Position numbers and translations under genes: made by a program
NCBI RefSeq assembly: GCF_033473495.1
Contig: NC_088936.1
Span: 310,001-374,000, forward strand
Source: Cercospora beticola
Lineage: Eukaryota; Ascomycota; Dothideomycetes; Mycosphaerellales; Mycosphaerellaceae
DNA length: 64,000 nucleotides
Direction of reading: 5' to 3'
The notes under the pieces: model-generated
The model's input: the letters and a program-made list of their open reading frames with translations, nothing else
What the model was told of the DNA's origin: nothing
Database searches by the model: none
Shown: piece after piece, positions 14,580 to 58,884 of the stretch
Numbering within the stretch: the first letter of the stretch is position 1
Layout of the letters: every line of letters starts with the position of its first letter

Positions 14580-14584
14580 AAAAA
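14580..14584 (-). terminator. Pol III terminator of tRNA-Glu
   Basis: A TTTTT run on the minus strand lies about 20 nt after the discriminator base of the tRNA-Glu gene, preceded by TTTC. This is the expected Pol III stop signal. Confidence 0.65.
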
Positions 14585-14604: not shown

Positions 14605-14747
14605 TTCCGAATCCGGGCTGAGATGAATTGTTAGTCGAAATTCTGGTAATATGACTTGAAGATGATCTTACAGTCGAACCCGGCTCTTTCCGGTGCTCAT
14701 AGGGCGAGTATGAAAGCGGAAGATGCTAGCCGATACACCAATTCGGA
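14605..14747 (-). tRNA. trnE(UUC): tRNA-Glu (anticodon UUC) with two introns, one spliceosomal-type
   Basis: On the minus strand the gene starts with the acceptor strand TCCGAAT (14747-14741) and ends with its perfect partner ATTCGGA plus discriminator A (14605). The anticodon stem TTCCG/CGGAA encloses loop CTTTCAC, interrupted after base 37 by a canonical 17-nt intron (14710-14694) whose TATGA pairs with TCATA. The T arm is CCGGG-TTCGACT-CCCGG, but its 3' strand is cut off from the loop by a 54-nt insert (14671-14618). That insert starts GTAAGA, has ACTAAC 18 nt before its end and finishes TCAG. Removing both inserts leaves exactly 72 nt with every stem paired. All identity features of eukaryotic tRNA-Glu are present. 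The B box reads GGTTCGACT followed by the insert instead of CC, so it is partly broken in the DNA. Confidence 0.9.
14618..14671 (-). other. Spliceosomal-type intron inside tRNA-Glu T arm
   Basis: A 54-nt insert between the T loop and the 3' strand of the T stem. Donor GTAAGA, branch ACTAAC and acceptor CTCAG match the introns of neighbouring protein genes. It holds no TTTT. The heptamer TTCGACT of the T loop recurs inside it just before the branch site, which may be chance or a trace of the insertion event. Confidence 0.85.
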
Positions 14748-48377: not shown

Positions 48378-50930
48378 ATGAATCGCTTTCGGAGACCTTG
48401 GACCATTCAACGTCAGAATACTGATGGCGTGCAGCTGAATAAGCTTGAAGATCACTCAGCGAAGCCAACGATCTCAGATGAGGAACTCGGTGCCCCAACG
48501 AAGACTCAAGCTCAAGCTGATGTAGAGCCCATCGACATATCGCAAGGCCACCTCACGGAAATCGAAGTTGATCTCAATGATGTGCTTCACGATAAGGAGA
48601 TCAAAGACATTGATGGAGATACATCACCGTATCCGGAAGTTGTCAGTCAAGCTTGTGTCGATATTCTTGCAGTCCAGTGGCTAACTTGGCCAGCGAGCTG
48701 TCGTGCCCGAAACAGATGATCCCACAATTCCGGTCAACACACTTCGCATGTGGATTCTGGGCACTTTCTGGGTGCTCATAGGAGCTGGAGTCAACCAATT
48801 CTTCTCGTTGCGATATCCCGCTGTCCATATCGTCTCGATCGTGGCAGAGTTGCTCGCTTATCCAATGGGTGTGGCATTGGCCAAAGTCCTGCCAATCATG
48901 TCTGTCCGGTTACCATTCTTTGGTGAATGGAGAATCAATCCAGATCATCATTTCAACATCAAAGAACACGTTGTGTAAGTCTTGACCATCCCTGTCAGAG
49001 GCGAAGTTGGCTAATCGAGCAGCATCGTCATAATGTCCAATGTCACGATCGGCTTCGCAGGCGGAGCTGACGCAAGCAACATGATTCAAGCAGCGATGAA
49101 GTTCTACAACTTCGACATCTCACCCGGTTTCAGCATTCTGAGTGTCTTATGCTGTCAAGTGCTGGGATTTGGAGTTGCTGGACTGTGTCGACAATGGCTT
49201 GTCGAACCGGCGAATATCATCTGGCCTGGAGTACTCGGCAATTGCGCTTTGCTGAACTCACTACACAGCAGAGCAAACGTAGTGGCCAATGGGTGGAAGA
49301 TCTCGCGGATCAGATTCTTCATGGTCGTCATGGCATGTGCCTTCGTCTGGTACTGGTTCCCGGGACTAATGTTCGTGGCCTTGTCTTACTTCACTTGGGT
49401 TTGCTGGATTGCGCCGAATAACATCGTGGTGAACCAGCTCTTTGGCTTCCAAACGGGGTTGGGTCTGAGTCCAATTACGTTTGATTGGTCACAGATCGCA
49501 TACAACACAAACCCTCTCCTGTCGCCGAGTTGGGCAGCGCTGAACGTCTTTGCCGGATTCGCATTCTTCTACTGGATCGTGGTACCAGGAATCTACTACA
49601 CAAACACCTGGTTTACAGCATACCTTCCAATGATGACTGCCGATGTTTACGATCGTACTGGCGCAGGTTACGATGTTTCCAAGGTGCTGACAGCAGCAGG
49701 AACTCTGGACCCTGTTGCATACGCTCAATACTCGCCTCCATATCTGAGTGCTACATTCGCCTTCGTCTATGGCCTTTCTTTTGCAAGTATTACGGCCGTT
49801 CTAGTCCATGTCTATCTTTGGCATGGCAGCGACATCTACGCCACACTCCGAGGCAGGCAGAAGCTTGACATTCATGGCCGTCTCATGCGTGCCTATAGGA
49901 AGGTGCCTTGGTGGTGGAATGTCGTCCTGCTGGTCATCTTCACCGCGCTCTCGATCGTGCTCGTCGAGATATACGACACAAAGCTGCCTGTTTATGGCGT
50001 GTTCTTGGCTCTCCTCATCCCGGCCATCTACATGATTCCATGTGGTATTATTCAAGGCATTACAAACGTCGATGCCAATCAACTCAATGTTCTCTCCGAG
50101 TTCATCGGCGGCTACATGTTCCAAGGCAAGCCACTGGCGAACATGATGTTCAAGATTCTGTCCACAGATGTTGTCAGCCAGGGCATTTTCTTCGCTCAAG
50201 ATCAAAAACTTGGCCACTACTTCAAGATTGCTCCGAGGACAGTCTTCTGGGCACAAGGTTACGCAACAATACTCGGCAGTCTAACGCAGACAGGTGTAAC
50301 ACTTTGGATGCTCGGCAACATCAAGGACATTTGTTCCTCGGACCAACCCGACTCATTCACTTGTCCTAATGGCCGAACAGTTTTCAGCTCCTCGGTGATC
50401 TGGGGCCTAGTTGGACCCGGACGACTTTACAGTGTTGGCAAGATTTACAGCTCTCTGCTTCATTTCTTCTGGATTGGTGCTCTGGTGCCCATTATCACCT
50501 GGGCGGTCTGGAAGTATACCAAGAACGACTGGATTCGAAAAGTGAATTGGCCCCTTATCTTCGTCGGAACATACAACGTCCCACCGGCGACCGGAATAAA
50601 CTTTTCTTCCTTTGCGTTGGTGAATTTCATATTCAACTACTACATCAAGAGGAAGGCCTTCGCTTGGTGGGCCAAGTACAACTACATACTGGCCGCAGCC
50701 TTGGACTTCGGAACGGCTTTTGCTGGCATCATCATTTTCTTTACTGTCAGCTATCGAGGTATGGACCTTCGTTTCTCGAATTGATCTCCGCTGATCTGAA
50801 AACAGGATACTCGTTTCCCGATTGGTGGGGTAACACTGTGTTCCTCAACACAGCCGATGGTAGAGGAGAAGCATGGAAGCCGATGCCTACAGCAGGATTC
50901 TTCGGGCCTGCAAATGGAACTTGGAGCTAA
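48378..50930 (+). CDS. Oligopeptide transporter, OPT family
   Basis: Four exons (48378-48641, 48694-48974, 49023-50758, 50806-50930) with introns of 52, 48 and 47 nt give 801 aa. The OPT signature SPYPEV joins across intron 1 to RAVVPETDDP and VNTLRMW, the family's conserved entry to the membrane region. About 14 hydrophobic segments follow, with the typical block NIKEHV joined across intron 2 to VIVIMSNV. The last intron joins SYRG to YSFPDWWGN and the end PANGTWS, as in fungal OPTs. The family imports tetra- and pentapeptides or glutathione, and some members carry siderophore or metal complexes, with protons, at the plasma membrane. All four exon joins preserve frame and conserved motifs. 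The gene appears functional. Confidence 0.93.
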
Positions 50931-58676: not shown

Positions 58677-58695
58677 GCCTCTATAGCTCAGTGGT

Positions 58696-58749
58696 GTAAG
58701 TTCTTGAACCATCAGTTCAACCATCAAACATCCACTAACGTCCAATCAG
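58696..58749 (+). other. Spliceosomal-type intron in tRNA-Thr D loop
   Basis: A 54-nt insert: donor GTAAGT, branch ACTAAC, acceptor ATCAG, no TTTT. It begins GTAAGTTCTT, like the second insert in the same gene, and shares the internal block TTCAACC with it. Confidence 0.88.
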
Positions 58750-58766
58750 AGAGCGTTGCACTTGTA

Positions 58767-58783
58767 TACCTTGTATCCAGTCA
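58767..58783 (+). other. Canonical tRNA intron of tRNA-Thr
   Basis: A 17-nt insert directly after base 37, the usual place for introns removed by the tRNA splicing endonuclease. Its length equals that of the canonical intron in tRNA-Glu. The 3' boundary has a one-base ambiguity (AA). Confidence 0.8.
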
Positions 58784-58800
58784 ATGCAAAGGTCGGTTGT

Positions 58801-58857
58801 GTAAGTTCTTCCACTGAATCATGCATTCAACCGAGCATCGCCTAATATCAATCGCAG
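58801..58857 (+). other. Spliceosomal-type intron in tRNA-Thr T loop
   Basis: A 57-nt insert: donor GTAAGT, branch CCTAAT, acceptor CGCAG, no TTTT. It splits the B box between GGTTGT and TCAATCC. It resembles the D-loop insert over its donor end, TTCAACC and the branch-to-acceptor part. Confidence 0.88.
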
Positions 58858-58879
58858 TCAATCCAGCCTGGAGGCATTC

Positions 58880-58884
58880 TTTTT
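58880..58884 (+). terminator. Pol III terminator of tRNA-Thr
   Basis: TTTTT starts four bases after the discriminator base (within ATTCTTTTTG), the standard Pol III stop distance. Confidence 0.8.

Follow-up and report, generated by a model that had tools for sequence, protein, structure and literature searches.

The window, the whole 64-kb stretch of Cercospora beticola DNA that was analyzed, encodes a Sed5 protein with 100% identity to one from this species and contains a tRNA-Thr(UGU) gene at 58677-58876 that is interrupted by three inserts (Table 1). A first-pass annotation had proposed that a 72-nt cloverleaf forms once all three are removed, and we found its coordinates to be exact, with 21 of 21 stem pairs, a TTCAATC T loop, the anticodon TGT, and the discriminator A in the spliced sequence. 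Two of the inserts (54 and 57 nt) lie where that annotation had placed them, in the D loop (between bases 20 and 21) and the T loop (between bases 54 and 55), and both carry the GTAAGT donors, CTAAC/CTAAT branch sites, and CAG acceptors it had described. The A box is intact in the DNA (TAGCTCAGTGG, immediately 5′ of intron 1), and the anticodon is read as UGU with the canonical intron at its usual position after base 37.

In the raw 64-kb window, no tRNA was reported by ARAGORN and none by Rfam at the gathering score. ARAGORN returned a cloverleaf from the spliced Thr(UGU) sequence and none from the raw one, and it prints the spliced gene as Glu(ttc) because it shifts the canonical intron to 33/34. 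When the spliced 72-mer is folded by itself, its minimum free energy (MFE) structure is the cloverleaf, with 20 of 200 shuffles folding at least as well; a DNA search with the same 72 nt gave no match and also missed its own exons, so it is a weak probe. We then scanned the window in a splice-aware manner, excising all GT..branch..AG candidates of 40–110 nt singly or in pairs before running ARAGORN, and obtained one match on the (+) strand, Thr(UGU), and none on the (−) strand, while the same scan of 20 one-strand dinucleotide shuffles (2125 candidate introns) gave none. With intron 1 removed, a search guided by structure only found a single block of 40–74 nt whose removal restores the cloverleaf, and this block is the GTAAGT...CAG intron 2.

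The first-pass annotation had also likened the two inserts to introns of nearby protein genes, a likeness that holds for the one gene compared, encoding an OPT transporter, whose three introns were placed by alignment to the Pseudocercospora homologue P0121. A second split gene, tRNA-Glu(UUC), lies within the window at 14605-14747 on the (−) strand and hosts one canonical and one spliceosomal-type intron. The splice-aware scan missed this gene because its donor is GTAAGA, and the structural annotator described below recovered it; the MFE fold of the spliced Glu(UUC) sequence is not a cloverleaf.

Table 1. Split tRNA genes and reference protein-gene introns in the window (intron sites are given as the two flanking bases of the mature tRNA)
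Feature	Position	Strand	Details
tRNA-Thr(UGU) exon 1	58677..58695	+	GCCTCTATAGCTCAGTGGT; acceptor 5′ strand, D stem 5′ strand, D loop to base 20
Thr(UGU) spliceosomal-type intron 1	58696..58749	+	54 nt, GTAAGT...TCAG, D loop, 20/21
Thr(UGU) intron 1, predicted branch site CTAAC	58735..58739	+	branch A 11 nt from 3′ splice site
tRNA-Thr(UGU) exon 2	58750..58766	+	AGAGCGTTGCACTTGTA; bases 21-37, anticodon TGT
Thr(UGU) canonical tRNA intron	58767..58783	+	17 nt, after base 37
tRNA-Thr(UGU) exon 3	58784..58800	+	ATGCAAAGGTCGGTTGT; base 38 to T54
Thr(UGU) spliceosomal-type intron 2	58801..58857	+	57 nt, GTAAGT...GCAG, T loop, 54/55, splits B box
Thr(UGU) intron 2, predicted branch site CTAAT	58842..58846	+	branch A 12 nt from 3′ splice site
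tRNA-Thr(UGU) exon 4	58858..58876	+	TCAATCCAGCCTGGAGGCA; base 55 to discriminator A73
Thr(UGU) Pol III-type terminator TTTTT	58880..58884	+	3 bases past gene end
tRNA-Glu(UUC) exon 1	14711..14747	-	bases 1-37
Glu(UUC) canonical intron	14694..14710	-	17 nt
tRNA-Glu(UUC) exon 2	14672..14693	-	base 38 to T-loop base 60
Glu(UUC) spliceosomal-type intron	14618..14671	-	54 nt, GTAAGA...CTAAC...TCAG, 60/61
tRNA-Glu(UUC) exon 3	14605..14617	-	bases 61-73
TTTTT 3′ of Glu(UUC)	14580..14584	-	
OPT-transporter gene intron	48642-48693		52 nt, CTAAC 9 nt from 3′ splice site
OPT-transporter gene intron	48975-49022		48 nt, CTAAT 8 nt from 3′ splice site
OPT-transporter gene intron	50759-50805		47 nt, CTGAT 11 nt from 3′ splice site

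Census of split tRNA genes

A structural annotator, which permits one canonical intron and at most two GT..AG introns, each with a branch site, and requires the splice signals (intron length, 40–95 nt; branch distance, 5–40 nt), identified 61 distinct tRNA genes with 33 anticodons in the 36-Mb genome. Specifically, 33 of these 61 genes are split by 39 spliceosomal-type introns (up to two per gene), a proportion that describes a non-random sample of gathered loci rather than an unbiased estimate for the 10-contig genome. Many of the split genes also carry canonical-type introns after base 37. The annotator found no match when the same DNA was shuffled (3.5 Mb), and this result, along with the 20 empty window shuffles, led us to reject a chance origin of the split tRNAs. 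After splicing, 16 split genes form 21 stem pairs, 16 form 20, and 1 forms 19; the corresponding numbers for unsplit genes are 7, 18, and 3.

The census grew from 58 genes (30 split) to 61 (33 split) after the CTTAC branch site was admitted and genes with equal mature sequences were kept apart. Duplicates in overlapping loci and below-threshold scores were excluded, the latter including the mitochondrial-type tRNAs of L014, L022, and L025. The 61 include some doubtful genes, namely, L031 and L044 (anticodon CAT, a canonical intron of 47–48 nt, and a 31:39 mismatch), L028 (19 pairs), and L137 (G1-U72). Left uncounted was L069, an Ala(UGC) gene that by eye is split twice (in the D arm and at 68/69) and whose donor, GTAGGA, lies outside the annotator list; L138, L112, and L092 gave no tRNA parse with three introns allowed.

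Among the searches, the Rfam tRNA family gave at least 44 matches with 62 of 905 candidates scored, and unsplit genes recovered later were missed by it. The variable loop plus B box pattern matched 94 places, compared with 50 for the reversed control. A good share of these matches belongs to a dispersed AT-rich repeat family with the B-box-like AGGTCTTYRGTTCGATYC (L056, L057, L060, L065, L070, L094, L109, and others), which is not tRNA. The T-loop intron pattern (9 matches vs 11 for its reversed control) and the A-box patterns (33 vs 65, 4 vs 13, and 49 vs 53) were unenriched; of the 9 matches to the intron pattern, 2 were tRNA genes.

Several other tRNA-like loci were encountered. Eight stretches (L019:1501-1645, L136, L144, L147, L033, L038, L039, and L153) combine an A box, a B box, and a T-run with long inserts in the anticodon arm, and the annotator found no GT-AG solution for any of them with three introns allowed. 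Four of them (L019, L136, L144, and L147) yield a cloverleaf after removal of a non-GT-AG block near bases 30–32, and several of the eight, by eye, are without T33 or a clear anticodon. They could possibly represent another intron type, a non-decoding family of Pol III RNAs, or degenerate tRNAs. Elsewhere, the gene at L005:938-1033, which encodes an initiator-type tRNA-Met and has a canonical intron of 24 nt, lies ~470 bp from the tRNA at L005:1501-1572, which reads as Ile(GAU); nuclear genes of eukaryotes do not usually carry this anticodon. At L014, L022, and L025 (G000:C2, ~3.50 Mb), AT-rich tRNAs of mitochondrial type (Ile, Lys, and Leu) cluster within a 5.2-Mb contig, and this cluster may be either nuclear mitochondrial DNA or an assembly join.

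According to the first-pass annotation, the Thr(UGU) locus could alternatively have been a decaying copy. As an isolated case, this reading fails because the same architecture recurs in 33 of the 61 annotated tRNA genes, where exons and stem pairing are kept and introns have diverged. As judged from the sequence, splitting is thus a property of many tRNA genes of this genome, extending beyond the single Thr(UGU) case.

Intron anatomy and conservation of the spliced RNA

The 39 tRNA introns range from 51 to 61 nt in length. Their donors are GTAAGT (11), GTGAGT (7), and other variants (21), and their acceptors are CAG (28), TAG (6), and AAG (5). The predicted branch sites comprise CTAAC (25), CTAAT (7), CTGAC (3), CTTAC (2), TTAAC (1), and TTGAC (1), and they are confined to 10–16 nt from the 3′ splice site, with 5–40 nt permitted. 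The presence of GT..AG in 39/39 introns follows from the construction of the annotator. In the structure-only search, which is blind to splice signals, the best blocks included GT..AG in 29 of 39 cases (1.1 expected), and the best block was not GT..AG for the other 10. Extended over the fetched loci, which the annotator had not selected, the same search returned 47 places, of which 22 are intact genes; in the other 25, GT..AG was among the best in 16 and not in 9. Shuffled loci returned none.

The introns are scattered over the T arm (12), the D loop (7), the 3′ acceptor strand (7), the D-arm stem (6), the 5′ acceptor strand (5), and the variable loop (2). None of the 39 spliceosomal-type introns falls in the anticodon arm (bases 27–43), though the annotator permits them there, a gap for which selection or competition from the canonical intron may be responsible. 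Five introns cut the acceptor after base 4, and the terminal mature exon therefore consists of just four bases.

Comparison of split genes with one another revealed conserved exons around divergent introns. Across ten paralogue pairs sharing an intron position, 703 of 723 exon positions are identical, compared with 310 of 554 intron positions (random pairs of the tRNA introns give 0.44), and the three Thr(AGU) genes agree in 72/72 exon bases, with clearly different introns at 11/12 in each. Where exons do differ, in six split pairs, the changes comprise 12 compensatory double changes, 3 on one side of a stem with pairing retained, and 3 in loops, with no broken pairs. The initiator-type genes L041 and L043, for example, differ at 8 bases that make up exactly 4 compensatory pairs; between L043 and the unsplit initiator copy, one pair scores as broken. 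Empty sites also occur naturally: the split Pro(UGG) gene L125 matches the unsplit L082 and L116 at 72/72 bases, and the split Ser(AGA) gene L023 matches L008 at 81/81. These patterns indicate that selection acts on the spliced RNA of multi-copy split genes, a group that does not include the single-copy Thr(UGU).

Next, we considered which tRNAs the genome encodes in split form only. The Thr(UGU) anticodon arm occurs in three places in the genome, namely, the window gene and two sites around which no tRNA was found, so that no intact Thr(UGU) of the kind the first-pass annotation regarded as decisive turned up; the search is bound to this anticodon stem, and a Thr(UGU) with another stem would escape it. 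ACA codons might in addition be read by inosine-34 Thr(AGU), and the three Thr(AGU) copies found are all split. The Trp anticodon arm has two loci in the genome, both split at 61/62, and the Cys arm has three sites, of which two are split genes and the third (L156) has no tRNA. Among the 61, all genes for Trp and Cys are split, as are those for Phe (2/2), His (1/1), and Leu (3/3), a count from which isoacceptors with other anticodon stems may have escaped. The uninterrupted anticodon arm of initiator tRNA-Met occurs in exactly two places, both split. The broader statement that all initiator tRNA-Met copies are split was rejected, since a third copy lacks spliceosomal introns and has just a canonical one of 24 nt.

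Probable transcription and proposed processing of split genes

A T-run of at least four bases occurs within 60 nt downstream of 30/33 split and 28/28 unsplit genes, compared with 11.7% of random 60-mers. Similarly, a TATA-like upstream motif is present in 18 of 28 unsplit genes and, among the 28 split genes whose upstream sequence was long enough, in 21 (7.5% of random windows). Given these downstream T-runs and upstream TATA-like motifs, the split genes are likely transcribed by Pol III. A contiguous B box is usual in nuclear tRNA genes. Thr(UGU) has none in its DNA (no GWTCRANNC in the gene plus 60 nt), which weakens its description as an ordinary tRNA gene, and we classed it as a split variant. 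Eleven genes have introns between bases 52 and 62, and five of these (two Phe, two Trp, and Arg(UCU)) keep a correctly placed B-box match because the AG of the intron supplies base 53 or because the cut leaves the whole box on a single side. For 3 of the 11, Thr(UGU), Arg(CCU), and Leu(AAG), no B-box match was found in the gene plus 60 nt.

Taken together, Thr(UGU) is one of the 33 split tRNA genes found, and we predict, as a very probable reading, that the inserts in its D and T loops are ordinary U2-type introns, which the spliceosome would remove from a likely Pol III transcript. Because the genes carry introns of the protein-gene type, the spliceosome would be needed for these tRNAs beside the usual tRNA-cutting enzyme. 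The first-pass annotation had suggested that a functional Thr(UGU) would depend on the spliceosome or on an unknown nuclease, and the sequence evidence supports such a dependence. We propose that the A box and upstream elements direct transcription of the gene by Pol III, the B box sometimes being broken in the DNA, and that U1 and U2 would recognize GTAAGT and CTAAC in the nuclear precursor, as in the fission yeast U6 gene. Splicing would precede end trimming, since introns within the acceptor and T arms would keep the RNA from adopting the fold recognized by RNase P and tRNase Z, and the canonical intron after base 37 would be removed last, by the SEN endonuclease and a ligase.

Processing from Pol II transcripts, for which splicing is routine, would account for the broken B boxes tolerated in 3 of 11 genes, including Thr(UGU), but the downstream T-runs of 30/33 split genes and the upstream TATA-like motifs (21/28 split genes, compared with 18/28 unsplit genes and 7.5% of random windows) make such an origin very unlikely. 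In a second reading, the GT..AG signals are incidental, and either the tRNA splicing endonuclease or some unknown nuclease takes out the inserts, similar to the situation in nucleomorphs and archaea. The endonuclease pathway presumably acts on many of the same genes, as their canonical-type introns suggest, and non-canonical tRNA introns are described as spliced in Guillardia theta nucleomorphs (PMC4090602). Yet donor, branch, and acceptor signals at a fixed spacing are common to all 39 introns, these signals resemble those of the three protein-gene introns in the window, and the G. theta inserts are given as 3–24 nt (PMC4090602) versus 51–61 nt here, so that excision by a nuclease appears most improbable.

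The split genes might instead be decaying pseudogenes that took up introns without cost while intact copies supply the tRNAs. Intact paralogues are indeed known for Val(AAC) (L007), Pro(UGG) (L082 and L116), Arg(ACG) (L026), and Ser(AGA) (L008), and a review regards short D- and T-arm inserts in eukaryotic tRNA genes mostly as pseudogenes (PMC4090602). Against decay stand the 12 compensatory double changes with no broken pair among split paralogues, the identical mature sequences over diverged introns (72/72 in the three Thr(AGU) copies found), and the absence of unsplit genes for Trp, Cys, Phe, His, and Leu among the 61, and we consider a pseudogene origin hardly credible. The reading we favor is that the split genes are functional and probably transcribed by Pol III, with their extra introns predicted to be taken out by the U2 spliceosome.

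Relation to known introns and implications

One close parallel is the U6 snRNA gene of fission yeast and other fungi, where an mRNA-type intron likewise interrupts a small structured RNA made by Pol III and splicing takes part in its maturation (PMC10484740). U6, however, is a single RNA that is itself spliceosomal, with reverse splicing as the proposed origin of its intron (PMC10484740), whereas here many different tRNAs are affected, with up to two such introns per gene and boundaries inside stems. Fungal U3 snoRNA genes similarly combine GT-AG introns and a CTRAC-type branch site with a small structured RNA, and a study of them names U3 and U6 as the sole RNAs of this small structured kind in which frequent introns are known (PMC5832005). 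The U3 introns average 92 nt and lie mostly at three positions in one stem-loop (PMC5832005), in contrast to the tRNA introns of 51–61 nt, which are scattered everywhere save the anticodon arm.

Among tRNA genes, those of nucleomorphs, red algae, and archaea share inserts in the D and T arms and up to three introns per gene, some of them shown to be excised (PMC4090602). Those introns are ascribed to splicing endonucleases and measure 3–24 nt in Guillardia theta (PMC4090602), while the tRNA introns described here have spliceosomal signals and a branch site. In eukaryotic tRNA genes, canonical introns sit after base 37, as they also do in many of the split genes, and their removal is attributed to an endonuclease and a ligase, not the spliceosome (PMC13149111). 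Introner-like elements, a source of new spliceosomal introns described in Dothideomycete fungi, the same fungal class, are near-identical copies (PMC4457414). In comparison, the 39 tRNA introns average 44% identity (0.44) over 60 random pairs, and we therefore rejected an active introner family among them.

Among the open-access literature matches listed, we found no earlier report of spliceosomal introns in nuclear tRNA genes. tRNAscan-SE 2.0 seeks non-canonical introns with archaeal models, and the string "spliceosom" is absent from the available text of its paper (PMC8450103). Standard gene finders may return tRNA counts that are too low in such fungi. For Peltaster fructicola, 44 tRNA genes were reported and taken as a real reduction (PMC7181583); our guess is that overlooked split tRNA genes could be linked to this low number.

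If the proposed reading is true, spliceosomal introns occur in many tRNA genes, some of which appear to be essential, and the spliceosome acts on tRNA precursors in which the last exon of the mature RNA can be as short as four bases. This would raise questions about the order of splicing and end trimming, the action of TFIIIC on genes with broken B boxes, and the invasion of structurally constrained genes by introns. We consider it reasonably probable that translation in this fungus depends on the spliceosome via its tRNAs, with every gene for at least Trp and Cys cut by spliceosomal introns. On that proposed reading, gene finders, which look for no such introns, would have miscounted the tRNA genes of this fungal group, and the cutting of every Trp and Cys gene would couple tRNA supply to mRNA splicing.
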